Shown here: positions 8,753 through 23,486 of the stretch, piece by piece | Position numbering within the stretch: the stretch's first letter is position 1 | Layout: the number at the start of each line of letters is the position of its first letter | NCBI GenBank assembly: GCA_028697725.1 | Contig: JAQVEG010000011.1 | Coordinates: 1 to 63,927, forward strand | From: Anaerostipes sp. | Lineage (GTDB): Bacteria; Bacillota; Clostridia; Lachnospirales; Lachnospiraceae | Direction: 5' to 3' | DNA length: 63,927 nt | Translations under genes and position numbers: made by a program | The notes under the pieces: generated by a model | What the model saw: only the letters and a program-made list of their open reading frames with translations | Told to the model about the DNA's origin: nothing | The model's database searches: none

Positions 8753-9166
8753 ATGACGAAAAATTTCACGTAACAGGGCTTTGTGTTCCTGAAAAGAACT
8801 ACATGGTTGATATGACAAGTCGTGTAGAAGAAATTGTCCACAATTATGTAGAAGAAGGAAAGTATTTTACGATCAATCGTGCAAGACAATATGGAAAGAC
8901 AACGTTGCTGTATCTTCTAGAGAAGCGTTTGCAGGATGATTATGTTGTGATTCGTCTAAGTTTTGAAGCAGCAGATGAATGGTTTGAATCATTGTATACA
9001 CTTGCCCAAGGATTTTCAAGAAAAATCGAAAGAGTTCTTAGAAGACAGGGTGTTTCAGATGAAGAATCAAGGATATATGTTAAGTTTTAATTTTAACAAA
9101 AAGAAAAAAATAGGCATACACAGAATAGAATATAACGGAAAGAGCATTCTGGAAGTTGTAGTCTAG
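8753..9166 (+). pseudogene. Remnant of AAA-ATPase / PD-(D/E)XK nuclease-like protein
   Basis: The segment carries the start and the end of a family common in Lachnospiraceae (an AAA-ATPase-like domain followed by a PD-(D/E)XK-like C-terminus), with most of the middle missing. After a good ribosome site (GAAGGAGA) ATG 8753 opens a frame that stops after six codons. Adding one base to the A-run at about 8758-8763 restores K-F-H-V-T-G-L-C-V-P followed by YMVDMTSR and the Walker-type segment RQYGKTTLL. This frame ends at about 9090. In another frame, 9066-9166 encodes a tail (MLSFNFNKKK, then SILEVVV before the stop) that looks like the C-terminus of the same family. Intact members are around 500-600 residues, so several hundred codons have been deleted. 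Confidence 0.7.
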
Positions 9167-10084: not shown

Positions 10085-11323
10085 ATGAATGAGATACAAT
10101 TGCGCTTTTTAGATACAATTAAATATTTTCTTAAGGATGAGACTGTTTTATGGGATGATGTTATGGAGGACATAGCATGGAATGAAATATTTAAAATGAG
10201 TGATCAGCACAATGTATTTCCTATGACCTATGAGGCAGTCTATGGCAGTAAGACATTTATGATGCTACCACCAGAATTGCAAGGTATGTATAAGAATAAG
10301 ATGGTACAGGCTGTAATTACTCAACTGAGAGCCACAGATGAATTTTTGAAATGCTATGAGTATTTGATTACACATGGAATCTGTCCAATGGTTGTGAAGG
10401 GAATTATCTGTAGAAATTTATACAAAAGACCAGATTATAGAATTTCTAATGATGAGGATATGTTTATTCCAAAAGAGATGGCGGTCAAATGTCATGAACT
10501 GTTGTTACAAGATGGATTTCAAAGTGACTGGGTAGTTTCAGAAGATATTCCAGATGAGATAACCTATGTTCATGGGCAAAGAGGACTTTTGATGGAGGTA
10601 CATAATTCTTTGTTTCCAAGAGATTCCAAGGCTTACGGAGAGTTCAATGAATTGTTTTCCCATAGCTATGAGAATAAAATAACAGAAGAAATCAATGGAG
10701 TACATGTGTATACTATGAATCATGAAGATCATTTTGTGTATTTGATTTGCCATGCTTTGAAACATTTTTTACATAGTGGATTTGGAATCCGGCAGGTGTG
10801 CGATATTGTTATCTATGGGAAAACATATGAAAATGAATTGAATTGGGAATCTATTGACCGAAAATTAGAAAGAATTTATGGAAAAGGCTTTACATCATCT
10901 ATATTTAAAATTGGAGAGAGATATTTTGATATTCACCTAGAAAACATAAAGTTTTCACAGCTATTTGAGAAAATGAAAGTAGAATGTGAGCCTATGCTCA
11001 TAGATTTGTTAGAGGGTGGAGTGTTTGGAGATTCTTCTATGACACGAAAGCATAGTAGTACAATCACATTAAATGCTGTGAGTGCGGCTAAGAAGAATCA
11101 AAAGCATTCGTTACTTGCAACTGTATTTCCTTCAAAGGCATATTTAGAACATCGATATGAATATTTGAAAAAATATCCCTATTTGCTTCCTGTGGCGTGG
11201 ATGAATCGAATTGTAACTTATAAGAAACAAGTAAAGGAAAGAGTGCAGGATAATCCATATGAGAGCATGGAGCTTGGAAAACAGCGAATTGAGTTGTTGA
11301 AAAAATATGGAATTATAGAATAA
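10085..11323 (+). CDS. Nucleotidyltransferase family protein (NTP_transf_5-like)
   Basis: 412 residues resembling the uncharacterised nucleotidyltransferase group NTP_transf_5. The key segment is MVVKGIICRNLY near residue 100 followed by YRISNDEDMFIP near residue 119. Family members carry a K-G at the first site and a D-x-D-type pair at the second, here DED, as in polymerase-beta-like transferases. The rest is largely helical. Proteins of this group are known as neighbours of PqqD-like, HPr-kinase-like and ABC exporter genes in peptide-natural-product and polysaccharide clusters, including some paeninodin-type lasso clusters. All three occur just downstream here. It is separated from them by a 128-base gap with its own promoter. 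Reaction and substrate are unknown. Confidence 0.72.
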   Translation: MNEIQLRFLDTIKYFLKDETVLWDDVMEDIAWNEIFKMSDQHNVFPMTYEAVYGSKTFMMLPPELQGMYKNKMVQAVITQLRATDEFLKCYEYLITHGICPMVVKGIICRNLYKRPDYRISNDEDMFIPKEMAVKCHELLLQDGFQSDWVVSEDIPDEITYVHGQRGLLMEVHNSLFPRDSKAYGEFNELFSHSYENKITEEINGVHVYTMNHEDHFVYLICHALKHFLHSGFGIRQVCDIVIYGKTYENELNWESIDRKLERIYGKGFTSSIFKIGERYFDIHLENIKFSQLFEKMKVECEPMLIDLLEGGVFGDSSMTRKHSSTITLNAVSAAKKNQKHSLLATVFPSKAYLEHRYEYLKKYPYLLPVAWMNRIVTYKKQVKERVQDNPYESMELGKQRIELLKKYGIIE

Positions 11324-11360
11324 AAACGGGAAATGGTCTGCATAAGTTCTGTATAAAATA

Positions 11361-11389
11361 TTGACAAAAAAAGGATAATAAGATACAAT
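11361..11389 (+). promoter_or_regulatory. Sigma-A type promoter for the PqqD/substrate operon
   Basis: TTGACA at 11361-11366 and TACAAT at 11384-11389 with a spacing of 17 bases. This is a near-consensus housekeeping promoter 62 bases upstream of the PqqD-like start. It would give the peptide locus its own transcript, separate from the nucleotidyltransferase. Confidence 0.75.
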
Positions 11390-11451
11390 TTAATTAGGTA
11401 TATATAAACGGGTATAATATAATTGCAAATTGTAATAGAATGGATTAGAGT

Positions 11452-11739
11452 ATGAAATTATACAAAACAAATGAAGACTTTTTATTACGAGAAATCGCTG
11501 GCGAATACATACTTGTACCAGTTGGCAATGGAGCACAGCAGTTGAATGGAATGTTGACATTGAACGATACATTTCGATTTGTCTGGGAACAATTTAAGGA
11601 AGCTAGAACAATCGAAGATGTAGTAAAAAGAACAGAACAGGAATATGATGCAGAGAAAGGACGAATTGAGCAAGATGTTTGTCAGTTTGTTCGAGAGTGT
11701 TTAGAATATGGATTCATGAAAGAGGAGGAATTATTATGA
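11452..11739 (+). CDS. PqqD-like peptide-recognition protein (RRE)
   Basis: A 95-residue protein with the length and residue pattern of PqqD family members, the RiPP recognition elements that bind the leader of a precursor peptide and deliver it to a modifying enzyme. Visible hallmarks are LLREIAGEYILVPVG at residues 11-25 (the beta strands that bind leader peptide), LNDTFRFVWE near residue 42 and EDVVKRTEQEYD near residue 55, with a final helix around FVRECLEYGF. In lasso-peptide clusters the same fold is the B1 protein. Its stop overlaps the start of the next gene (ATGA), linking it to the putative substrate. Confidence 0.85.
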   Translation: MKLYKTNEDFLLREIAGEYILVPVGNGAQQLNGMLTLNDTFRFVWEQFKEARTIEDVVKRTEQEYDAEKGRIEQDVCQFVRECLEYGFMKEEELL

Positions 11740-12134
11740 AAGGTGCAAAGAAACAGTGGATATATCCACAAGCAGTAGGTGAAGTGTTTACACCCAATGA
11801 ATATATTGCAGCATGTGGAGATAGTGGTAAAGTATATTATTTTAAGTGCGATGCTCCGGCAGGAACTCTTTACTATTATCCAACTTCTGATGGTGCGGTC
11901 GATGGTATTCGAGCGTCAAGTACTGGAGCAAAAAAGCTGGGAATTTATCACCCATGTAATATAACACATCAGGCAGCATCTACAAATCCTTTTTATGATG
12001 GTTTTGTGGATCGAAATGGGAATAAAAAGCAGGATAAAGGTGAAGGTGTAATTGTATGGCGCGGAGAGTATCAAAACAATGGTCATGCAACGAATAACCT
12101 TAACATGGATTCTTGGGAAACAGCGAAGTCATAG
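11736..12134 (+). CDS. Putative substrate protein of the radical SAM/PqqD system
   Basis: 132 residues from ATG 11736, which has AGGAGG at 11723-11728. A GTG at 11679 is in frame but would run deep into the PqqD gene. There is no N-terminal signal peptide. The first 25 residues are leader-like (WIYPQAVGEVF then TPNEYIAA), followed by CGDSGK. The whole protein has three cysteines (27, 38, 74), many Tyr/Gly/Ser/Asn residues, and DRNGNKKQDKGE near residues 92-103, which resembles a calcium-binding D-x-N-x-N loop. I recall similar proteins with the EY-x-AACGDSG segment in Lachnospiraceae, of no known function. Position between PqqD and a radical SAM maturase makes it the likely modified substrate. 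This is inference. Confidence 0.65.
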   Translation: MKGAKKQWIYPQAVGEVFTPNEYIAACGDSGKVYYFKCDAPAGTLYYYPTSDGAVDGIRASSTGAKKLGIYHPCNITHQAASTNPFYDGFVDRNGNKKQDKGEGVIVWRGEYQNNGHATNNLNMDSWETAKS

Positions 12135-12155
12135 AATAAACAATATAGAACTGAT

Positions 12156-12186
12156 AAAGAGCCGGGGAAACTTTGGCTCTTTTTTT
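12156..12186 (+). terminator. Intrinsic terminator between substrate and maturase genes
   Basis: AAAGAGCC (12156-12163) and GGCTCTTT (12175-12182) form an 8-base-pair stem with an 11-base loop, running into TTTTTT. It lies inside the apparent operon and would reduce transcription into the downstream enzyme and transporter genes relative to the upstream small genes. Confidence 0.8.
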
Positions 12187-12200
12187 GAAGGAGAATCAAT

Positions 12201-14153
12201 ATGGATTCAATGGATATATCTAAGAATACATTGGAAGAAAGATTGTTTCGGCATGCGGAGGAACATGGTGTCCCTTTATACGGAATTTTAGAACTTTTAC
12301 CATTGTGCAATTTGAACTGTAAAATGTGTTATGTTCGTTTAAGTGAGGCGGAGATGAAGAAACAGGGAAGATTACGAACGGTAGATGAATGGCTTCAAAT
12401 TGCTAGAGAGATGAAGAGAGAAGGAACTCTTTTTTTACTTTTAACAGGAGGAGAACCACTGCTTTATCCTGGATTTCAAGAACTATATCTGGAACTTAGA
12501 AAGCTTGGAATGATTGTGACCATAAATACCAATGGAACATTGTTAAATGATGAATGGGCAGAGTTTTTTGGAAAAAATAAGCCAAGACGTGTGAATATTA
12601 CTTTATATGGAAGTAAGGATGAGACTTATGAAAAGTTATGTGGTATATCACATGGCTTTCAACGGACGCTAAAGGGAATTAAATTATTACAACAGCAAAA
12701 AGTTGATATAAAAATCAATGGAAGTTTGGTAAAGGAAAATCAAAAAGACTATCAACGGATGATTGAAATTGGAGAAGAATTGGATATTCCTGTTCGGATT
12801 GATACATATATGTATCCAGCGGTTAGAGAGCGAGAATGTTCTTTCCCATACCAGTCTAGATTAAATCCAGAGACTGGAGCAGAATTACGTGTAGATATCT
12901 TGGAGAGAGAAATGGGAGAAGATATCTTTAAAACATATGTAAATACCACGCTGCAGACCATAGAGCAGACCCCAGATGTGGAAGAAAAAAGAAAGGGAAT
13001 GACATGCCGAGCTGGGAAAAGCAGTTTTGTTGTGAACTGGAAAGGGGAGATGACACCTTGTGTTGTCATGGGACAACCCAAGGTATCTATTTCGGATGTT
13101 GGATTTAAAAAAGCGTGGGATAGAATCTCTAAGGAAACGCAGCAAGTGATCTTACATGACGATTGTTATAAATGTAAATATCGAAAAGTATGTAATAATT
13201 GTGCAGCAAGTGCAATGGCGGAAGAAGGAAGTTATCATTCAAAACCGGAATATATTTGTAAATATACCAAAAAGACAATAGAGCTTTTAAAAGAGAAAAA
13301 AAGACAATTGAAAAGGATAATTCAAATTGGAGAATTCACCTTTGAGATAAATTATAACGAAGAGATTCAGATACCAGAGCATCTTTTGGAATTTGAAACA
13401 AAAAATGTGGGTCCTCAATATAAATATACAATTCTTCTTTCAGACGATTTGCCAGAAGCCAAAGGGGTGTTGGTGGCTAACCGAGAAGATATCAGAATTT
13501 TTAATCATCATGGTTTGGAAAGCCGCTTCATCGGGGTAAAAGGAAGAGAAAAACCATACGCATATTATGAAGAAATTTCAAAAGAAGAAGCCAGAATTAC
13601 TGTAATTACAGAAAAGCGAAAATCATTGACCATTGATCCTATTTTTATGTCTTTATTTGCACTGGAAAAAAGAATACTAGATAGAAAAGGATTGATTCTT
13701 CATTGTGCCTATATCAATTATCAAGGTAAGGCGATTCTTTTTTCAGCACCTTCTGGTGTTGGAAAAAGCACACAGGCTAGTTTATGGGAAAAATATCAAA
13801 ATGCACAGACAATCAACGGAGACCGAGCTTTGTTGCAACAATCTGCTGAAACATGGATGGCAAAGGGATGGCCAGTTTGTGGAACTTCTGGGATTTGCGA
13901 AAATAAGAATACACCAATTCAAGCAATTGTTATGGTAGGAAGAGGAGAGGAAAATCAGATACAAAAACTAAAACAGGCAGAAGCAATACAACGATTATAT
14001 ACGCAAGTGACAGTGAATTCCTGGGATATTTCCATGGTAGATCAAACCTTGAATTTGTTAGAAGAAATCACAAGACAGGTACCTGTCTATTATCTGGCAT
14101 GTGATATTTCAAAGCAGGCAGTGGAGTGTTTAAAGAAAGAATTAAGAGGATAA
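12201..14153 (+). CDS. Radical SAM/SPASM peptide maturase fused to HPr-kinase-like domain
   Basis: 650 residues with two enzyme modules. The first (about 1-370) is a radical SAM enzyme: C36-x3-C40-x2-C43 in LCNLNCKMC binds the SAM-coordinating 4Fe-4S cluster, and LLLTGGEPLL near residue 77 follows. A SPASM region runs from about C269 through TPC near residue 287 to DDCYKCKYRKVC-NNC, enough cysteines for auxiliary clusters. The second (about 375-650) resembles the HPr kinase/PEP-carboxykinase fold seen in peptide clusters: ILHCAYINYQGK, then the phosphate loop SAPSGVGKST near residue 515, and INGDRALL. Such kinase-like proteins are usually separate. AAGGAGA precedes ATG 12201. The enzyme probably modifies the 132-residue protein upstream. 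The chemistry cannot be told from sequence. Confidence 0.85.
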   Translation: MDSMDISKNTLEERLFRHAEEHGVPLYGILELLPLCNLNCKMCYVRLSEAEMKKQGRLRTVDEWLQIAREMKREGTLFLLLTGGEPLLYPGFQELYLELRKLGMIVTINTNGTLLNDEWAEFFGKNKPRRVNITLYGSKDETYEKLCGISHGFQRTLKGIKLLQQQKVDIKINGSLVKENQKDYQRMIEIGEELDIPVRIDTYMYPAVRERECSFPYQSRLNPETGAELRVDILEREMGEDIFKTYVNTTLQTIEQTPDVEEKRKGMTCRAGKSSFVVNWKGEMTPCVVMGQPKVSISDVGFKKAWDRISKETQQVILHDDCYKCKYRKVCNNCAASAMAEEGSYHSKPEYICKYTKKTIELLKEKKRQLKRIIQIGEFTFEINYNEEIQIPEHLLEFETKNVGPQYKYTILLSDDLPEAKGVLVANREDIRIFNHHGLESRFIGVKGREKPYAYYEEISKEEARITVITEKRKSLTIDPIFMSLFALEKRILDRKGLILHCAYINYQGKAILFSAPSGVGKSTQASLWEKYQNAQTINGDRALLQQSAETWMAKGWPVCGTSGICENKNTPIQAIVMVGRGEENQIQKLKQAEAIQRLYTQVTVNSWDISMVDQTLNLLEEITRQVPVYYLACDISKQAVECLKKELRG

Positions 14154-14158
14154 AATGT

Positions 14159-15946
14159 ATGAGTCAAGAAAAAGGCGACAATGAAAAAGTGTCTTTTGAA
14201 TCATTAGATATATTAATCGGAAAATGGAAGGAGGGGACATTTGGTGAAATTCTAGATGACTGGAGATGGATTTTTTCTTATAGTAAAAGGTATAAGGGTG
14301 CAATTGTATTTTATACAATTCTAGGAATCCTAAGTACGAGTTTAGGACTGCTAGGTAGTATAGTGAGTAAATATCTTATAGATATCATTACAGGATATAA
14401 GACCGATCAGTTAGGAACGTTTATCGTTATAGCACTTGGAAGTGCATTGTTTAGTTTAGTGTTTTCTAATGTTATTAATCGAATTACTACAAAGCTGAGT
14501 ATTTATATTAATAATGACATTCAGGCAGATATTTTTGATAAGATTATTGATGCCGATTGGATGGAAATCAATAAATATTCTAACGGAGATGTGCTGAACC
14601 GCTTTAATGGCGATATCAGTACCGTAAGTGAAAATGCCATTAGCTGGCTTCCTACCATTGTCATTGCAATTTATAATTTTATCGCAACGTTTCTTGTTAT
14701 TTGGTATTATAGCAAAATTATGGCAGCTCTTGCGTTTGCAAGTGCACCGATTATGCTTTTAATGTCTAAGTTCTTAATCCGAAAACAAAGAGAATATGGA
14801 CAAAAAGTGCGTGAGATGAGCAGTGACATGATGACCTTTGAAGTTGAAACTTTCTATAATTTTGATACAATTAAATCCTTTGGAATCACTTCTTTGTATG
14901 GAAGGAAAATGCGTAGTTGGCAGGAAAAGTTTAAAGATATTAGTCTAAAATATAACATGTTCAGCATTAAAACTGGAATATTTATGTCCATAATTGGAAT
15001 GATTGTAGAGTATGCAGCTTTTGGTTATTGTTTATTTTTGCTTTGGACAAAGGCCATTACATATGGAACAATGACACTTTTCTTACAGCAAAGAGGTAAT
15101 TTAAATTCTGCATTTAATAGCGTTGTTTCTATTATCCCTTCTTTTTTGAATAGTTCAATTTCTGCACACAGGATTAGAGAACTTGTTGAGTTGAAGAAAG
15201 AAGTGCATATTCCTACAAGTAGTGAACTAGATGAATTTACCGATGATGGATTTCAAATTCACATGGAAGATGTTGACTTTTCGTATGTAGAAGAGAATCG
15301 TGTCATTACGAATTCTGCATTTGAAGCAAATCCAGGAGAAATCGTTGCACTGGTTGGACCATCAGGTGAGGGGAAAACCACTATGATTCGGTTGATTCTT
15401 GGACTAATTCGACCAGAGTGTGGGAAGGCATATATTTCTGCATCCAATGGAATGGAAGTTGAGATGAATGCAGATACTAGATACTTATTTGCATATGTTC
15501 CTCAAGGCAATACCATTCTTTCGGGAACAATTGCAGAGAATATGCGTATGATAAAAGAGGATGCTACAGACGAAGAGATTATCGATGCCTTAAAGATTTC
15601 TTGTGCATGGGATTTTGTTAAAGATATGGAAGATACAATTGATTCAAAGATAGGGGAGCGTGGGCGAGGATTCTCTGAGGGACAAGCACAGCGGATAGCC
15701 ATTGCAAGGGCGGTACTTCGAGATGCCCCTATTCTTTTGCTAGATGAAGCAACATCGGCCCTTGATGTGACAACAGAACGGAGGGTGCTTCGCAATATTA
15801 TAACCCAGCGTCCAAATAAAACCTGTATTGTGACAACACATAGGCCAAGCGTTCTCAACATGTGTCAACGTGTCTATCGAGTGATGGAAACAAAAGTAAC
15901 GGAATTATCAGAAGAAGAATCCAGTAAAATGGCCATGGACTTCTGA
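14159..15946 (+). CDS. ABC exporter, fused membrane and ATPase domains
   Basis: About 595 residues from ATG 14159, which lies 8 bases after AAGAGGA. A GTG at 14126 is in frame but would overlap the maturase end. An N-terminal cytoplasmic stretch of about 45 residues precedes six membrane helices (about 50-330), then an ATPase domain: Walker A GPSGEGKTT near residue 400, signature FSEGQAQR near residue 503, Walker B ILLLDEATSALD and the switch His in TTHRPS. It is a half-transporter type that works as a homodimer. There is no C39 peptidase domain at the N-terminus, so any leader must be removed by another enzyme. Its position implies export of the maturase product. Confidence 0.85.
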   Translation: MSQEKGDNEKVSFESLDILIGKWKEGTFGEILDDWRWIFSYSKRYKGAIVFYTILGILSTSLGLLGSIVSKYLIDIITGYKTDQLGTFIVIALGSALFSLVFSNVINRITTKLSIYINNDIQADIFDKIIDADWMEINKYSNGDVLNRFNGDISTVSENAISWLPTIVIAIYNFIATFLVIWYYSKIMAALAFASAPIMLLMSKFLIRKQREYGQKVREMSSDMMTFEVETFYNFDTIKSFGITSLYGRKMRSWQEKFKDISLKYNMFSIKTGIFMSIIGMIVEYAAFGYCLFLLWTKAITYGTMTLFLQQRGNLNSAFNSVVSIIPSFLNSSISAHRIRELVELKKEVHIPTSSELDEFTDDGFQIHMEDVDFSYVEENRVITNSAFEANPGEIVALVGPSGEGKTTMIRLILGLIRPECGKAYISASNGMEVEMNADTRYLFAYVPQGNTILSGTIAENMRMIKEDATDEEIIDALKISCAWDFVKDMEDTIDSKIGERGRGFSEGQAQRIAIARAVLRDAPILLLDEATSALDVTTERRVLRNIITQRPNKTCIVTTHRPSVLNMCQRVYRVMETKVTELSEEESSKMAMDF

Positions 15947-16054: not shown

Positions 16055-16843
16055 ATGAAGAAAAAATCAGTATGGAGAATTATTCTTATTCTTGCAATTC
16101 TTGTTTTTGCGGGCTGCATTGGCAAGTTAGGCTGGGATAAGTATCAAGATTATAGGTTGGAACAGGAACAGAAAGCAACACTAAAGGCGATTAAAAGCAG
16201 CGTATTTGTGGGAGAGACAGATGGAGAGGAACCAGACCTTCCAAAAGGAATCAAACATGGAAGTGAAATCGACTTCAAGAAGTTAACCAATATAAATTCT
16301 GATGTTTATGCATGGATTTATATTCCAGGAACGAAGGTAGATTATCCTATTGCACAGTCTTCCACAGATGATACACATTACTTGAAGTATAACTACAAGA
16401 ATGAGCCTCAGTTTGCGGGATGTATTTACACAGAGAAGCGTAACAGTAAGAGTTTTACAGATCCTAATACGGTGATTTATGGACATAACATGAGAAATAA
16501 TTCTATGTTTGGTGGATTAGATTTGTTCAAAGATGAGGCTTATTTCAACAAGAATCAGAATGTTTATATTTATACTGAAAAAAAGATTTATACATATCAA
16601 ATTTTTGCAGCATATATTGCAAGTGATTCACATATTTTAAAATCAAATGATTTTTCTAAGAAGGATGTGTTTCAAACATATTTGACAAATATTTTGAGAA
16701 AGAGAAGTATGGATGCCAATATCAATAAAAAGATGGTCGTATCATCAAAGGATAAGATTATTACATTAAGTACTTGTGTTGGTGGAGCACCTAACAATAG
16801 ATATTTAGTACAGGCGGTGTTAACAGATGAAAGAAATACATAA
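16055..16843 (+). CDS. srtB: Class B-type sortase
   Basis: 262 residues. An N-terminal membrane anchor (about residues 7-25) is followed by the sortase beta-barrel: WIYIPGTKVDYPIAQ near residue 86, the catalytic His in VIYGHNMRNNSMF near residue 144, the catalytic Cys in TLSTC near residue 241, and the Arg in NNRYL just after. The NSMF segment after the His and the long helical insertion before TLSTC are characteristic of class B sortases. It would cleave a sorting motif on exported proteins and attach them to the cell wall or another acceptor. The likely substrate is the protein at 18039, two genes downstream. The end overlaps the LCP gene by 17 bases. Confidence 0.9.
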   Translation: MKKKSVWRIILILAILVFAGCIGKLGWDKYQDYRLEQEQKATLKAIKSSVFVGETDGEEPDLPKGIKHGSEIDFKKLTNINSDVYAWIYIPGTKVDYPIAQSSTDDTHYLKYNYKNEPQFAGCIYTEKRNSKSFTDPNTVIYGHNMRNNSMFGGLDLFKDEAYFNKNQNVYIYTEKKIYTYQIFAAYIASDSHILKSNDFSKKDVFQTYLTNILRKRSMDANINKKMVVSSKDKIITLSTCVGGAPNNRYLVQAVLTDERNT

Positions 16844-18011
16844 TGACAAACTGAATCTAGATGAATTGAACCAGCAGTTAGATGCTCGGATTCAAAAGAC
16901 AGAGATGGATGTAAACGAAGAGTTTCAAGGACATCAACCAAAGAAAAAAGAGCCAAAAAAGAGAAAGAATGGAAAGAAGAAATTAACAAAACGCCAGATA
17001 GGAAAGAGAATTGGACTTACAGTCCTTGGTATTCTCCTTGTAATTCTCCTCGCAATTGTTATTGCCTGGGCCATTGGAAAGAGTGGTTTATTTGGTAAAG
17101 ACGTTGATATGGAGAAAGGTGCGGATGGAGCAAATATTTCCCAAAATGGTGAGATTATTGTTTACAAAGGCAAAAAATATAGATATAATGATAATATAAC
17201 TAGTATTCTATGTATGGGTATCGATAAAACGAGCCTGGATTCTAATGATAAGACATTAAAGAAGCGTGGAGCAGGACAATCAGATTCATTGTTTTTACTT
17301 GTGATGGACACGACTTCTATGAAGACAACTATCGTGAATGTTTCTCGTGATATTATGACAGATGTACGTAATTATGATGCGAAAGGGAAGTATACAGGAA
17401 CTAGTTTGCAGCAAGTATGTTTAGCATACGCAAGTGGAGATGGAAAGAAGCTTAGCTGCACGAATACAGTGACAGCAGTTTCAAAGTTATTGTATGGTAT
17501 GCCGATTGATTCTTATATATCAATTGATTTATCGGCAATTAGTACATTGAATGATGCTATTGGTGGAGTGAGTGTACAAGTGTTAGAAGACTTGACATCT
17601 CAAGATCCGGTGTTGAAGCAGGGAGCCAACGTTACATTACTTGGTGATCAGGCAGAGACTTATGTTCGTTCTAGAGAACATGATCCAGTTGACGCGAATA
17701 ATGCACGTATGAGAAGACAGCAACAATATGTATCTGCATTTGCAAAGAAGGCAATTTCAGAGATGAAAAGTGATATTACATTACCTGTTAATATGCTCAA
17801 TTCTCTTTCAGACAATGCAGTAACAAATCTTACGGGGAGTAAGATATTATATTTATCATCGCTAGTAGTTCGTAACAGCGTTTCGTTTGATAATATAGTG
17901 AATATTGAAGGGACATATAAAGAAGGAAAAAGTGGATATGCAGAGTATTATGCAGATGACACAAAGCTATTTGAGATGGTTCTAAGTGTTTTTTACGAGG
18001 AAGTGAAGTAG
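16827..18011 (+). CDS. LytR-CpsA-Psr (LCP) family glycopolymer transferase
   Basis: 394 residues. A long, very basic cytoplasmic N-terminus (about 60 residues) precedes one membrane helix (about residues 62-86), then an extracellular LCP domain: ILCMGIDK near residue 127, GQSDSLFLLVMD near residue 148, VNVSRDIMTD near residue 171, VDLSAIS-type and ETYVRSREHD near residue 283, the Arg/Asp residues that bind the polyprenyl-diphosphate substrate. LCP enzymes attach capsule or teichoic acid chains to peptidoglycan. Here the gene lies between sortase and the CpsB/CpsCD genes, fitting a role in anchoring the surface glycan. Confidence 0.88.
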   Translation: MKEIHNDKLNLDELNQQLDARIQKTEMDVNEEFQGHQPKKKEPKKRKNGKKKLTKRQIGKRIGLTVLGILLVILLAIVIAWAIGKSGLFGKDVDMEKGADGANISQNGEIIVYKGKKYRYNDNITSILCMGIDKTSLDSNDKTLKKRGAGQSDSLFLLVMDTTSMKTTIVNVSRDIMTDVRNYDAKGKYTGTSLQQVCLAYASGDGKKLSCTNTVTAVSKLLYGMPIDSYISIDLSAISTLNDAIGGVSVQVLEDLTSQDPVLKQGANVTLLGDQAETYVRSREHDPVDANNARMRRQQQYVSAFAKKAISEMKSDITLPVNMLNSLSDNAVTNLTGSKILYLSSLVVRNSVSFDNIVNIEGTYKEGKSGYAEYYADDTKLFEMVLSVFYEEVK

Positions 18012-18462: not shown

Positions 18463-19191
18463 ATGATTGATATACATACACATATATTGCCAGGAGTTGA
18501 CGATGGGGCGAGAGATTTATCTGATTCTGTAGCTATGGCGGAACTAGCTGTAAGTTCTGGGGTGCATATCTTAGTAGCAACACCTCATAGTAATATGCGT
18601 GGAAGGTTTGAGAATTATAATAGTGAAGAATTTCGCAATGGTTTTCAACGACTACAAAAGGTAATTGACGGAGAAGGAATTCCACTTTTAATTCTGCCTG
18701 GAATGGAGATATTTACAACACATCATGTGATGAAGAGAATCCAAGAAGATGAATTGATTTCCTTAAACCATTCTAGATATTATTTGATGGAATTTCCGTT
18801 TTTGTCCAGCTATGAAGAGATGAATCAAGAATTAGAGAATGTGATAGTCGGTGGTTGTATTCCGGTAATCGCACATCCTGAGAGATATGAAAGTATTCAG
18901 GAGAATCCAAGGAGAGTTGCTTCATGGAGGAAGAAAGGTATGCTGATTCAAGTAAATCGAGGGAGTATTCTTGGGAAGTTTGGGCATAGGGTAAAGTCTT
19001 GTGTAGATGAATTGCTAGATGATGAATTAGTTACTTGTATTGCCAGTGATGCACATAAACCATATGAGCGAACTACCTTTATGGGAGATATTCAGGAATA
19101 CATGGAGAAGGAATATACTTTTGATTATGCAAAAAAGTTATTATATGATAATCCAAAGAAAATTATTGAAAACCAAAATGCGATAAAATAG
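18463..19191 (+). CDS. cpsB: CpsB/CapC-type PHP-family protein tyrosine phosphatase
   Basis: 242 residues with the manganese-dependent PHP fold. Metal-binding motifs appear in order: DIHTHILPGVDDG at residues 3-15, ATPHSNMRGRF near residue 45, the catalytic-region Glu in PGMEIF, AHPERYE near residue 137 and ASDAHKP near residue 192. In Gram-positive capsule operons this enzyme removes phosphate from the tyrosine-rich tail of the CpsD kinase, and so sets chain length and amount. Its two presumed kinase partners lie at 20094 and 21654 in the same transcript. Length is usual for the family. Confidence 0.92.
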   Translation: MIDIHTHILPGVDDGARDLSDSVAMAELAVSSGVHILVATPHSNMRGRFENYNSEEFRNGFQRLQKVIDGEGIPLLILPGMEIFTTHHVMKRIQEDELISLNHSRYYLMEFPFLSSYEEMNQELENVIVGGCIPVIAHPERYESIQENPRRVASWRKKGMLIQVNRGSILGKFGHRVKSCVDELLDDELVTCIASDAHKPYERTTFMGDIQEYMEKEYTFDYAKKLLYDNPKKIIENQNAIK

Positions 19192-19224: not shown

Positions 19225-20082
19225 ATGAAGAAATTAAACAAAATATGCCTTATAATTTTTGGGTGTGCATTAGCACTAAGTATAATTTTTTGGTTTACCC
19301 AGATACGAAAGGGAGATCGAATTGGACCATCAATTAGTATGAAATCATCAGAGATGACCGTTGAATTACATGCATCAGATGATGAATTTTTAAAGGGTGT
19401 TAGTGCCAAGGATGCGAAAGATGGAGATGTATCAGATACTCTTGTTGTTGAGAGTGTTTCTAATTTTTTAAGTGGTGGACGAAGAATTGCAGTGATTGCG
19501 GCAGTAGATAAGCATAATAATGTAAGTCGTGCCAATCGAACCATTATATACAAAGGATATAAGTCACCTAAATTTTCTATGAAGAAGCCTTTGTGTTTTC
19601 CCACAACATCGTCAAATGATTTTGATATGCTACAGAATTTAAAGGTTTCAGATTCTATTGATGGGAATATTTCAGATCAGATTCGAGTTATGACCAACAG
19701 TACCGTTGATTTATATTCGGCAGGGGAATATCCAGTGAAGTTTCAGGTTGCTAACAGTGCAGGAGATACCATTTCATTGAATGCTACTATTATCGTATAT
19801 GATAAGGAAGATGAAGCAAATCATGCATTTATTCATTTGGATAAGTATTTAGTATATACAAAGGTTGGAAAAAAATTAAATGCAGAGTCTTATATTTCTG
19901 AAGTTTCCACAGGTGGGAATTACGAGAGGTCAGATGTGGCTGGAGATATTAGTAAGTCTAAAGTCAAAGTAGATGACAGTGATGTGAATTATAACAAGGC
20001 AGGGTCTTATGAGATTAAATATACGGTGTCTAGTGGTGGTCATAAGGGCAGTGTGAACTTAATTGTAATAGTGGAAGAATAG
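19225..20082 (+). CDS. Membrane-anchored protein with Ig-like repeats
   Basis: 285 residues. An N-terminal membrane helix (about residues 6-24) is followed by three beta-rich repeats. The repeats contain the pattern D-x-x-D-G-D/N-I/V-S-D (DAKDGDVSDT near residue 69, DSIDGNISDQ near residue 146) and G-x-Y-x-V-K-F/Y-x-V (GEYPVKFQVAN near residue 172, GSYEIKYTVSS near residue 263), typical of DUF5011/HYR-like bacterial immunoglobulin-type domains. It therefore probably sits outside the membrane and binds a wall or glycan component. It lies between the phosphatase and the kinase genes with gaps of about 33 and 11 bases, so it is part of the same operon. Its role is unknown. Confidence 0.72.
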   Translation: MKKLNKICLIIFGCALALSIIFWFTQIRKGDRIGPSISMKSSEMTVELHASDDEFLKGVSAKDAKDGDVSDTLVVESVSNFLSGGRRIAVIAAVDKHNNVSRANRTIIYKGYKSPKFSMKKPLCFPTTSSNDFDMLQNLKVSDSIDGNISDQIRVMTNSTVDLYSAGEYPVKFQVANSAGDTISLNATIIVYDKEDEANHAFIHLDKYLVYTKVGKKLNAESYISEVSTGGNYERSDVAGDISKSKVKVDDSDVNYNKAGSYEIKYTVSSGGHKGSVNLIVIVEE

Positions 20083-20093
20083 AGGTGGGCAAG

Positions 20094-21641
20094 ATGAGTA
20101 AGAATCAAATAAGTCATCAGTCAGAGAATGACTATGAGATGAATATTGATATTTATAGTATTCTAAAAGACATTTTTAAGTATGCGGCAGTTGTGTTGTT
20201 ACTGGCAGCCTCTATTAGTTTATTAACTTATGTATATGTTGGTGTTACATATCATAAACAATATGAATCCAGTAGTACATTTATTGTCAGTGGAAAAGGA
20301 AGCAATAACAATATATATAGCAATTTAGAGACAACGTCTCAGATGGCGACAAAGTTTTCACAGATTTTAAATAGCAGTATTCTGCAAAAAAAGGTTGCAC
20401 AGGAAATGAAGCTTGGTTATTTTCCAGGGACGGCGACAGCAGAAGTGATTGAAGAGACAAATCTACTTGTGCTTCATGTCAAAGCCGATTCACCAGAGAT
20501 GGCATTCCGATTGAATAAGTCTATCATGAATAATTATTCCATTGTCTCAGATTCTTTGATGGGAAGTGTGGTACTTGATGTATTGCAGCAGCCTACAGTA
20601 CCTAGTTCTCCAGCCAATGGATTTCATCCATTTGCGTTAATGAGAAAAGTATTTGTATATACGGTTGGGATATTTTGTGCATTGATTGCGATTGTATCAT
20701 TTTTAAAGGATACGGTGCGTAAGCCAAAGGAGATTGCATCAAAAGTGGATACAAAGCTTCTTGAGACAATTTACCATGAAAAGAGATATAAGTCTTTGAA
20801 GGCAAGATTGCATCGAAAGAGAAATGAAGTCCTTTTGCTGAATCCTGGTATGAGTTTTCGGTATGTAGAAGACATGAAGAAATTAGCGAGAAAAGTAAGC
20901 AATCAGATGAAAGATCGTAGTGCAAAAACTTTGTTGGTTTCAAGTGTAAAAGAGAACGAAGGAAAGTCTACAGTTGCGGCGAATTTAGCGTTAGCTTTGG
21001 TAGAAGAATCTGAAAAAGTTATTTTAATTGATGGAGATTTAAGAAATCCATCCTTGTATAAAATATTTGGAATGGCTGCCAACGAAGTTAAGCAATTTGG
21101 TGAAGTATTAAATGGAAATATTAGTGCAGAGAATTTGATTGTGGAGGCAAAGAATTCAGAGCTTTGTCTAGTTACGGGAACTATGATATATCCAAACTCA
21201 ACGGAACTTCTTGCAATGCCAGTGTTTATTAAGATTTTAGAATTTTGTAAAGAAAACTTTGATTATGTTATCATTGATACACCAGCCATGTCAAAAGTTG
21301 CAGATGCAGAGGAATTAGTTGATATGGTAGATGCCACATTGTTAGTTGTTAAGCAGCATACTGCACTGGTAAAGGATATTAATGATGCAGTTGCTGTCTT
21401 GGATTCTTCGGATCATCGGCTTCTTGGCTGTGTATACAATGATGTATTTCAGGGTGTGGCAGAAACAGCAAAACAATACGGATATGGTGGATATGGTTAC
21501 GGTTATGGTTATGGTAGTTATGGGAGCCAATATGGATATGGTTATGGAAGTGGAAGTCGCCATGGGTATGGATATGGATCTCATTATGGCTATGGATATG
21601 GAACTAGAAACAAAGACAAGAAAGAAAAGTCAGATTCGTAA
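20094..21641 (+). CDS. Fused Wzz/bacterial tyrosine kinase with Tyr-Gly-rich tail
   Basis: About 515 residues from ATG 20094, which follows GAGGTGGG; a GTG at 20085 is in frame. The N-terminal part is a chain-length determinant (Wzz) domain between membrane helices at about 22-46 and 184-204, with the P-x-x-P-x-x-P segment (PTVPSSPANG) before the second. The kinase has Walker A KENEGKST near residue 287, Walker A-prime LIDGDLRNPS and Walker B VIIDTPAMS. Residues about 462-504 are a repeat of Gly-Tyr units with about 15 tyrosines, the autophosphorylation cluster. Firmicutes usually have separate CpsC and CpsD, so the fusion is unusual. It regulates polymer length and export. Confidence 0.9.
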   Translation: MSKNQISHQSENDYEMNIDIYSILKDIFKYAAVVLLLAASISLLTYVYVGVTYHKQYESSSTFIVSGKGSNNNIYSNLETTSQMATKFSQILNSSILQKKVAQEMKLGYFPGTATAEVIEETNLLVLHVKADSPEMAFRLNKSIMNNYSIVSDSLMGSVVLDVLQQPTVPSSPANGFHPFALMRKVFVYTVGIFCALIAIVSFLKDTVRKPKEIASKVDTKLLETIYHEKRYKSLKARLHRKRNEVLLLNPGMSFRYVEDMKKLARKVSNQMKDRSAKTLLVSSVKENEGKSTVAANLALALVEESEKVILIDGDLRNPSLYKIFGMAANEVKQFGEVLNGNISAENLIVEAKNSELCLVTGTMIYPNSTELLAMPVFIKILEFCKENFDYVIIDTPAMSKVADAEELVDMVDATLLVVKQHTALVKDINDAVAVLDSSDHRLLGCVYNDVFQGVAETAKQYGYGGYGYGYGYGSYGSQYGYGYGSGSRHGYGYGSHYGYGYGTRNKDKKEKSDS

Positions 21642-21653
21642 GGAGGAGGCAGC

Positions 21654-23036
21654 ATGAGTGAGAATAATAATACAATAAAGCATGAACACAAAGCCAACCT
21701 TATTGATTTGACAGGAATTGTAGATGATATGCTAAAAGGAGTCTATCGATTAAGAATTAGATTTCTAATGATTATTTTGATTGTGGCAGCAATTTACTGT
21801 GGTTATCAAAGGATGACATACACGCCATACTATGTGGCAAGTTCTACATTTACAATTAGTGCGAGTATTTCTTCTGAATCAACAAACAGTTATCTGGATA
21901 ATACAGCAGCCAATCAAATGGCAAAAACATTTCCTTATATTTTGAAAAGTGGAGTGTTAAATGATGTGGTGGCTGAAGATTTAGGGGTACAAAAGATTGA
22001 CGGAATCATTTCTGCAGATGTAATGAGCGATACAAATCTATTTACGTTGAATGTTCGCTCCAATAGTCCTGCCATGGCAGAGAAAATATTAAAATCAGTA
22101 GTAAAGAATTATCCAACAGTTGCTGAATTTGTCATTGGAAGTACGAAATTGAGTCTTATGGACGAGACAGGGACACCAACAGCTCCTGCCAATCCATTTA
22201 GTTGGAAACATGAATTGTTCATAGGCGTGGCAATAGGACTTTTTATCTGTCTACTTATTGATTTACTATATGCCTTTGGAAGAAATACAGTCCAAAGAGA
22301 AGAAGATTTCAAGAAAATGTTTAGTATTAAGAGTCTAGGGGTTCTTCCTCAGGCGAAGTTTAATAAGCGAAGAACAAAAACGGAAGAATTGGTTGTTCTT
22401 GATAATGCAAGACTTCCAAAGGTGTTCTTAGAGTCTGCAAGAACCATCCGAAGAAGGATTGAACGTTCTTGTAAGGAACATAATATACATTCTTTCCTTG
22501 TTACCAGTGCTATGCCGGGAGAAGGAAAATCAACAGTTGCAGCAAATGTTGCCCTGTCACTTTCTATGAAAGGGTATAAAGTAATTTTGGTGGATGCAGA
22601 TTTACGGAATCCATCAACTGCAAAAATATTAGGTATGGAAGAAAAGAAAGTTGGAACCTTGGAAGTAATGAAAGGCGAGGTTTCTTACGAGGAGGCAGCA
22701 CAAAGATATAAGGACACCAATGTTATGTTTTTAGCTGGGTCTACTCCAATTCAAGATACAGCCAGTGTTCTAAGTGGAGAATATATGAGGCGTTTTATCA
22801 AAGAGTTAGAGAAGAATGCGGATTATGTTATTATTGATACACCACCAAGCGCACTTCTTTCAGATGCTGCCATTGTGGCACAGTATGTGGAGGGTGCAGT
22901 GTTTGTCGTAAGACAAGATTACACAGATGTAGATCGTATTGTAGATGGTATGGAAATTTTGGCTAGTTCAAAAGTACATATCAGTGGATGTGTGTTAAAT
23001 TACGCACCGGTTAGAGGACCAGGAATTGTGGGATGA
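21654..23036 (+). CDS. Second fused Wzz/tyrosine kinase-like protein, without tyrosine tail
   Basis: 460 residues with the same plan as the gene upstream: membrane helices at about 32-50 and 178-200, the proline-rich segment TGTPTAPANP between them and the ATPase core (Walker A MPGEGKST near residue 287, Walker A-prime LVDADLRNPS, Walker B VIIDTPPSALLSD). The C-terminus ends shortly after VRGPGIVG and has no tyrosine cluster. It may therefore be a kinase that phosphorylates its neighbour, or a pure chain-length regulator. The 12-base gap with GGAGGAGG indicates co-translation with the first copy. The two form a tandem duplication with divergence. Confidence 0.88.
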   Translation: MSENNNTIKHEHKANLIDLTGIVDDMLKGVYRLRIRFLMIILIVAAIYCGYQRMTYTPYYVASSTFTISASISSESTNSYLDNTAANQMAKTFPYILKSGVLNDVVAEDLGVQKIDGIISADVMSDTNLFTLNVRSNSPAMAEKILKSVVKNYPTVAEFVIGSTKLSLMDETGTPTAPANPFSWKHELFIGVAIGLFICLLIDLLYAFGRNTVQREEDFKKMFSIKSLGVLPQAKFNKRRTKTEELVVLDNARLPKVFLESARTIRRRIERSCKEHNIHSFLVTSAMPGEGKSTVAANVALSLSMKGYKVILVDADLRNPSTAKILGMEEKKVGTLEVMKGEVSYEEAAQRYKDTNVMFLAGSTPIQDTASVLSGEYMRRFIKELEKNADYVIIDTPPSALLSDAAIVAQYVEGAVFVVRQDYTDVDRIVDGMEILASSKVHISGCVLNYAPVRGPGIVG

Positions 23037-23039
23037 TTT

Positions 23040-23486
23040 ATGAAGGAAATTGATAATAATATTTTGTTTCCTATGTTAAAAGAATTAATTGAGCAGGGAA
23101 AAACAGTTCAAATTGTAGTTAGTGGTAGTAGTATGAATCCTTTTTTGATTCATCAAAGAGACTTAGTTTTGGTAAAAAGTTTAGATGGTAATTTAAAATC
23201 AGGAGATATTGCACTTTATCAAAGAGAGAATGGAGCATATGTTTTGCACCGAGTACATCATGTGGATAGCAAAGGAAAGCTTTATATGATTGGGGATGCG
23301 CAAACAGAGATAGAAGGTCCATTGGATGTAGACTGTGTGTTTGGAATCGTATGTAAAGTGAGGCGGAAAGGTCGTTGGATGACGGCGGAAAGTTTCTGGT
23401 GGAAATTTTTTGAGAAAGTCTGGATTCGACTAGTTCCATTTCGGAGATGGATTATGGGAATGTATCGTATATTTACAAGGAGATGA
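23040..23486 (+). CDS. S24/S26-like signal peptidase without membrane anchor
   Basis: 148 residues. VVSGSSMNPFL near residue 25 holds the catalytic Ser as in signal peptidase families S24/S26. LKSGDIALYQR and the segment YVLHRVHHV near residue 73 resemble the Ser-His type (S26B) rather than Ser-Lys, and MIGDAQ follows. No N-terminal membrane helix is present; only an amphipathic aromatic C-terminus (WWKFF to the end) could touch the membrane. Similar short peptidases occur beside PqqD, kinase-like and nucleotidyltransferase genes in peptide clusters, and one leaderless candidate lies 11 kb upstream. It starts 3 bases after the previous stop, so it is in the capsule operon. Confidence 0.78.
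   Translation: MKEIDNNILFPMLKELIEQGKTVQIVVSGSSMNPFLIHQRDLVLVKSLDGNLKSGDIALYQRENGAYVLHRVHHVDSKGKLYMIGDAQTEIEGPLDVDCVFGIVCKVRRKGRWMTAESFWWKFFEKVWIRLVPFRRWIMGMYRIFTRR

Follow-up and report, generated by a model that had tools for sequence, protein, structure and literature searches.

What would a gene cluster make that carries the tailoring enzymes of certain lasso peptide pathways and, in place of the ring-forming enzymes, a radical SAM enzyme? The question is raised by positions 10085 to 15946 of contig JAQVEG010000011.1 (GCA_028697725.1) from Anaerostipes sp., which was analysed over its full length of 63,927 nucleotides (hereafter the window). An initial annotation, made from the sequence alone, had described five genes here and proposed a radical SAM peptide system that uses lasso-type accessory genes without a lasso cyclase. 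Our analysis suggests that the logic of a radical SAM pathway for ribosomally synthesized and post-translationally modified peptides (RiPPs) is joined at this locus to lasso-type C-terminal tailoring, apparently a new combination, and that the most likely product is a protein that is modified by the radical SAM enzyme, phosphorylated on serine, perhaps also phosphoglycosylated, and exported. All five open reading frames (ORFs) lie in the order and at the places first described, and Pfam matches, together with the SPASM cysteines, upheld the nucleotidyltransferase, the PqqD-type RiPP recognition element (RRE), the radical SAM/SPASM enzyme and the ABC exporter. The features of the cassette are as follows.

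10085 to 11323, + strand: NTP_transf_5 nucleotidyltransferase, 412 residues (PF14907, 147.6 bits, cutoff 31.2)
11361 to 11389, + strand: promoter-like TTGACA-17-TACAAT upstream of the PqqD gene (called from its consensus match alone, 11 of 12 bases)
11452 to 11739, + strand: PqqD-type RRE protein, 95 residues (PF05402, 53.3 bits, cutoff 23.4)
11736 to 12134, + strand: putative substrate (precursor), 132 residues, leader plus a beta domain of ~100 residues (relatives in 56 loci; AlphaFold)
11736 to 11813, + strand: putative leader, residues 1-26, W..P......F..NEYIAA (invariant P11, F18, N21 and E22; probable end)
12129 to 12131, + strand: C-terminal serine codon (Ser end in 69 of 70 branch members)
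12156 to 12187, + strand: terminator- or attenuator-like hairpin and T-run between the substrate and maturase genes (-13.9 kcal/mol)
12201 to 13298, + strand: radical SAM/SPASM maturase domain, residues 1-366 (PF04055, 103.1 bits, cutoff 29.5; cysteines)
13299 to 14153, + strand: kinase domain like HPr kinase (HPrK) and phosphoenolpyruvate carboxykinase (PEPCK), fused to the maturase (fold search; P-loop SGVGKST, LH and NGD motifs)
14159 to 15946, + strand: ABC exporter, permease and ATPase fused (PF00664, ABC_membrane, 96.9 bits; PF00005, ABC_tran, 90.5 bits)

The observation that most directly identifies the 132-residue protein as the substrate of the radical SAM enzyme (the maturase) comes from comparison with relatives. 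A scan of genome contigs with the substrate alignment found 56 loci, with titles mostly from Bacillota, many of them gut or animal samples and one labelled Parabacteroides; since the scan used the single peptide pattern [AP]NEY[VI]AAC, it made visible only the window's own branch. The maturase starts within 600 bases downstream of 48 of the 70 substrates at these loci, several core types of substrate share one leader, and a candidate substrate was present in 17 of the first 20 maturase loci, the others being two in which the maturase lies at a contig end (L036 and L038) and one with no candidate (L043). On a tree of 59 substrate-linked maturases, five substrate types required four changes, the minimum possible. 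Shuffling the substrate labels, a procedure that ignores relatedness, gave a mean of 20.7 changes, and not one shuffle out of 200 needed as few as 4. The tree left out substrates with no maturase within 600 bases (4000 for a set of proteins termed IFxS, described below), and the maturase of L098, which lies downstream of two substrates, was labelled with the farther one. At each of the six two-pair loci on the tree (L061, L062, L068, L086, L095 and L100), every maturase clustered with its own substrate type. Of all the evidence that the maturase acts on the small protein, we regard this clade pairing as the strongest. In five loci of the IFxS set (L041, L042, L046, L048 and L049), the substrate gene adjoins genes whose products are very large (1100 to 2800 residues).

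The gene set as a whole recurs more often than chance. Among the 56 substrate loci, many of which are short contigs, we found the maturase in 51, PqqD in 47, HPrK in 43, the ABC exporter in 32, an S24/S26-type peptidase in 29 and NTP_transf_5 in 25; for the 32 loci that span 17 kb or more, referred to here as full-length, the counts were 31, 28, 28, 21, 22 and 17, respectively. The maturase-kinase protein was matched at E 1e-30 in 32 of 250 genomes of the window's family and in 4 of 11 genomes of its genus, its own genome included in both. The expectation that substrate and maturase always occur together largely held from the substrate side, with the maturase relative in 51 of the 56 loci, and failed from the maturase side, where wider relatives of the enzyme also stand beside other small-protein types or, in some loci, with no candidate found by the criterion used. 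Pairing with the 132-residue family is therefore a feature of one branch. One cassette, L090, comes from a metagenome-assembled genome labelled Parabacteroides, and its maturase sits on a very long branch (1.98); it is a genuine member from the Bacteroidota or else a contig that was binned wrongly.

The two halves of the 650-residue fusion (12201 to 14153) were considered separately. The SPASM Pfam model scored 19.9 bits against the maturase, slightly below its cutoff of 21.5; among 59 aligned maturases, the window's included, six SPASM cysteines are kept in 59 of 59 and a seventh in 58 of 58, and the cysteines of the CxxxCxxC motif are kept in 58 of 58 covering rows. Of the 73 NCBIfam models that matched the window maturase, none among the best 25 reached its cutoff. 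The kinase half gave no Pfam match at E ≤ 0.1, NCBIfam matches that were all below cutoff and, by sequence, an E of about 1 to HPrK/P. Its AlphaFold model, with a predicted local distance difference test score (pLDDT) of 96.7, matched PEPCK (best E 4.5e-7) and HPrK/P (best E 6.7e-6) in Foldseek with probability 1.00 and with modest template modelling scores (TM-scores) of about 0.24-0.56. The P-loop is intact (GxGKST; SGVGKST in the window). The kinase half is therefore predicted to fold like HPrK and PEPCK, in agreement with the HPr-kinase-like domain first proposed. Among the relatives compared, maturase ORFs are at most 506 residues long and HPrK is an ORF of its own, so the fusion looks peculiar to the window. 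The reading frame of the ABC exporter is open from a GTG at 14126, and a C39 peptidase domain was not among its Pfam matches.

The 132-residue protein is predicted to fold into a beta domain that follows a leader of 30 residues. An AlphaFold model built with 42 sequences had a pLDDT of 86.8 and a predicted template modelling score of 0.72, with lower confidence in the leader up to about residue 31. In the 42 aligned relatives P11, F18, N21, E22, A26, C27, Y34, F36, C38, H78, V105, W108, H117 and S132 are invariant, and C74 is nearly so. A known function unrelated to radical SAM enzymes would have told against the initial annotation, and none was found: Pfam, NCBIfam and PDB sequence searches returned no usable family, collections of phages and plasmids held no match at E 0.01, and a fold search with the model returned nothing at E ≤ 0.001. 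SpyCatcher, the best match of that search, was set aside at E 0.4 and a TM-score of 0.23. The other substrate types were likewise placed in no usable Pfam or NCBIfam family. A hairpin-like element, defined as a T-run with an upstream fold of -7 kcal/mol or lower, was detected in 21 of 46 relatives, as compared with 2 of 46 stretches inside maturase genes; its position between the substrate and maturase genes fits a precursor that is produced in excess.

A second line of evidence is the C-terminal residue of the substrate. Serine is the last residue in 69 of the 70 substrates of the 56 loci (Ser132 in the window), the exception (L097) being a shortened frame, and the residues that precede it vary (AKS, NRS, NAS, NHS, DKS and others). 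By comparison, 9 of 306 ORFs for cassette enzymes end in serine, a set that may include some ORFs truncated at contig ends. Ten further proteins, the IFxS set, were chosen by eye from leader and position; nine end in serine and one (L049) in threonine. Taken together, 79 of 81 proteins (the window's, the 70 and the ten) end in serine, with one threonine and one shortened frame. When the cores of these 81 proteins were clustered by blastp at E 1e-3, ten groups were obtained, seven of them within the IFxS set, and core groups that blastp did not link have, apart from the threonine and the shortened frame, the same last residue, so that the kinase may recognize the C-terminal end as a tag. The serine rule is valid in the branch to which the window belongs and, with one exception, in the IFxS set, although not at every locus with a radical SAM enzyme and HPrK, and within the window's branch it points to a kinase that acts on the substrate.

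We compared the cassette with lasso peptide loci. Searches of the window by tblastn with two cyclases and one B2 protease gave a best match of E 0.86, with the lasso loci L130 and L132 positive; the single B2 query, from L129, had no match in the window at E ≤ 1 and was found in the positive controls. This agrees with the absence of cyclase and protease that had been noted from the sequence. No lasso cyclase was found in the 56 substrate loci at E 1e-3 or in the window's own genome, which is 92% complete and was searched without a positive control. Conversely, the kinase profile of this system matched the kinases of five lasso loci (E 2e-6 to 3e-4), the nucleotidyltransferase profile matched the corresponding enzymes of the same five loci (E 3e-17 to 4e-28), and the motifs of both proteins align between the two kinds of locus, among them the DxD motif of the window NTP_transf_5 enzyme with those of the five lasso loci. 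The NTP_transf_5 protein is thus a homologue of the lasso 'N' enzyme, and its probable function would be sugar decoration of a phosphate. Six lasso precursors located in these five loci all end in serine. With paeninodin and pseudomycoidin clusters the window shares a PqqD-type protein (B1 in those clusters), an HPrK-like kinase, NTP_transf_5, an ABC exporter, a [WY]xxP motif in the precursor leader and a serine-ended precursor, whereas it has a radical SAM/SPASM enzyme instead of the asparagine-synthetase-like cyclase and B2, its substrate has 132 residues as compared with ~45 for a lasso precursor, and its PqqD protein scored 28.2 bits against the lasso B1 model NF033536 (cutoff 80). In the literature (the review PMC8498205, and PMC7533575), kinases of the paeninodin type are described as phosphorylating the C-terminal serine, with the remaining sequence being of little importance, and the serine phosphate then receives one or two hexoses from the nucleotidyltransferase of the pseudomycoidin pathway; a further paper also names HPr kinase for lasso clusters. 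Profile homology, co-occurrence and clade pairing together support the proposal of a radical SAM system that uses accessory genes of the lasso type and lacks a lasso cyclase. In L130 (775-12651), a lasso cluster lies beside a radical SAM-PqqD-HPrK-S26-ABC cassette, followed by a third PqqD-HPrK pair, an arrangement suggesting that parts have been exchanged between lasso and radical SAM systems.

Based on these results, we favor, at a probability of about 0.55, a pathway in which the substrate undergoes leader-guided radical SAM modification, its serine is phosphorylated and the phosphate decorated, the leader is removed and the product is exported. The chemical steps, their order and the cut site we infer as follows. 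The PqqD protein would bind the W/YxxP...F leader and pass the substrate to the fused maturase, whose radical SAM/SPASM half would introduce a radical modification, most likely a thioether or C-C crosslink, into the core that bears Cys, His and Trp residues. The HPrK half would transfer phosphate onto the C-terminal serine, and the NTP_transf_5 enzyme would decorate that phosphate, probably with a sugar as in pseudomycoidin; the product may accordingly be phosphorylated or glycosylated. A signal-peptidase-like enzyme may cleave near VAA|C, and the ABC exporter would then release the modified beta domain of ~100 residues.

Several observations weigh against this interpretation. A second set of 20 loci, most of them with more distant maturases, yielded 15 believable substrates, of which only 8 end in serine, and one of these eight (L199) repeats a gene already counted in the first set as L076. 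The script had found 24 ORFs, 10 of them with a serine end, and nine were dropped by eye, two with a serine end, for having no plausible leader or product (L184 9037, L191 4498, L192 3836, L195 8505, L197 10198, L199 6857, L200 8261, 14681 and 4477); the start chosen for the L193 substrate is probably internal. Substrates at loci with the kinase end in other residues in L182 (two, both A), L184 (L), L185 (L), L190 (F) and L196 (W), and on these loci the strict rule of a serine end wherever HPrK is present was rejected. The substrate of L183 ends in C, and no kinase lies in the available sequence. By the criterion used, no candidate substrate was found in L186, L187, L188, L189, L194 or L201, and L191 yielded only an unbelievable one. 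The rule is also broken in L139 and L148; L130 and L141 follow it, and L135 ends in threonine. The cassette itself is not constant, as 15 of the 32 full-length loci lack NTP_transf_5, 11 the ABC exporter, 10 the S26-type peptidase, 4 PqqD and 4 HPrK, and the full-length locus L104, the sole one without a maturase, has a substrate-like gene and no cassette. The sequence homology of HPrK to the lasso kinases is weak, and the disregard of relatedness in the label shuffling belongs here as well.

The S24/S26-type peptidase, the serine rule, the hairpin between the substrate and maturase genes, and a set of capsule genes are points beyond the initial annotation. Downstream of the cassette the window carries, in order, genes for a sortase, an LCP protein, a small secreted protein, CpsB, an Ig-like protein, two Wzz/ATPase-type proteins and a signal-peptidase-like enzyme, and the capsule-side genes are closely spaced on a single strand.

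16827 to 18011, + strand: LCP family glycopolymer transferase (PF03816, 85 bits)
18463 to 19191, + strand: CpsB/CapC capsule phosphatase, first gene of the capsule control block (PF19567, 224.9 bits)
19225 to 20082, + strand: surface Ig-like protein in the capsule block (PF16403, 50.4 bits)
20085 to 21641 and 21654 to 23036, + strand: two capsule chain-length/tyrosine-kinase-like genes (PF02706, Wzz, on the first only; ParA/AAA_31-type ATPase on both)
23040 to 23486, + strand: S24/S26-type signal-peptidase-like enzyme (PF00717, 27.2 bits, cutoff 23.3)

The last of these enzymes is 50% identical over 146 residues to the protein encoded next after the exporter in L034, and it is perhaps the leader peptidase. 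Homologues of CpsB or Wzz (threshold E 1e-10) were present in 26 of the 56 substrate loci (836 kb) and in 7 of the first 20 maturase loci, as compared with none of 20 control stretches (286 kb). The controls comprised 1.5 to 18.4 kb at the starts of contigs in 15 genomes of the window's family that carry a maturase; most of the substrate loci come from other genomes. When NTP_transf_5 was set against the capsule block, the block was present in 13 and absent from 4 of the full-length loci with the nucleotidyltransferase, and present in 6 and absent from 9 of those without it (Fisher p 0.07), a result that is suggestive only, and the association was dropped as a firm finding. Between 16055 and 18359, a class B sortase (186 bits, above cutoff) precedes the LCP gene, and a 106-residue protein that begins like a signal peptide, contains an SPKTADD stretch and ends in a hydrophobic tail is a possible sortase substrate. 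Upstream of the cassette (8803-9166) lie two short frames that overlap; the first has a weak match to AAA-ATPases, and the pair looks like what is left of a broken AAA-ATPase gene.

An ordinary radical SAM RiPP, in which thioether bonds yield a secreted, bacteriocin-like antimicrobial and the HPrK and NTP_transf_5 proteins are accessory or regulatory, would account for much of this, and we consider it possible, at clearly lower odds than the modified and phosphorylated protein favored above. PqqD, the SPASM maturase, the exporter and the attenuator-like hairpin are usual RiPP traits, C27 and C38 of the substrate are invariant and C74 nearly so, and kinase loci with substrates that do not end in serine exist. 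Against this, a core of ~100 residues that is predicted to be a folded domain is unusual for a bacteriocin, the linkage to capsule genes is recurrent, and the serine rule of the branch points to kinase action on the substrate. Sactipeptide and ranthipeptide SPASM maturases have in common with the window's enzyme the CxxxCxxC motif, the full set of SPASM cysteines, a leader and RRE, and a Cys-bearing core; both cluster cysteine sets and a leader-bearing precursor paired with its maturase are thus present here. The window's core differs in being protein-sized, folded and serine-ended, with a kinase and a nucleotidyltransferase linked to it. The SynChlorMet system also has a PqqD relative, a radical SAM/SPASM enzyme and an HPrK-like protein, and ScmC was the best NCBIfam match of the kinase half. 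Membership in SynChlorMet was rejected on scores far below the cutoffs (44.2 against 125 for ScmC, 16.8 against 100 for ScmD, and 76.8 and 65.4 against 400 for ScmE/F). SynChlorMet is not known to have an identified precursor or a link to capsule genes.

A C-terminal phosphate and sugar might instead tether the exported domain to capsular polysaccharide or a lipid carrier, giving a protein-decorated capsule, and we hold this to be unlikely. It would agree with the frequency of CpsB/Wzz homologues relative to the controls, with the position of the peptidase gene inside the capsule block of the window and with the sugar transfer onto phosphoserine described for pseudomycoidin (reviewed in PMC8498205); on the other hand, NTP_transf_5 and the capsule block are loosely associated, 13 of the 32 full-length loci have no capsule block, and no polymer-protein ligase was identified. 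An equally speculative form of protein-glycan linking would have the radical SAM enzyme harden the beta domain while the kinase and nucleotidyltransferase join the C-terminal serine phosphate to a sugar; if this were true, hypervariable domains could be displayed on the capsule of gut Firmicutes. That the 132-residue protein is a normal secreted protein adjoining an unrelated radical SAM operon is very improbable, since, despite the stable fold that AlphaFold predicts without any modification and the 5 of 56 loci that have a substrate relative and no maturase in the available sequence, the substrate gene adjoins the maturase gene and pairs with it by clade, the leader has no Sec-type hydrophobic stretch (maximum 11-residue hydropathy of 0.64, as compared with 2.55 in a neighbour with a Sec signal), and the PqqD and substrate genes overlap by 4 bases.

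No description of this system was found in the literature searched on RiPPs, lasso peptides, HPr kinase and capsules, a search outside which most subscription papers lay. The locus places lasso-type C-terminal tailoring enzymes, without a lasso cyclase, beside a radical SAM enzyme for protein-sized substrates, and the serine rule amounts to a prediction at the level of a single residue. The link to capsule genes points to a possible function on the surface of gut bacteria. The cassette, which is present in some gut Firmicutes and often lies beside capsule genes, thus seems to modify and export small folded proteins.

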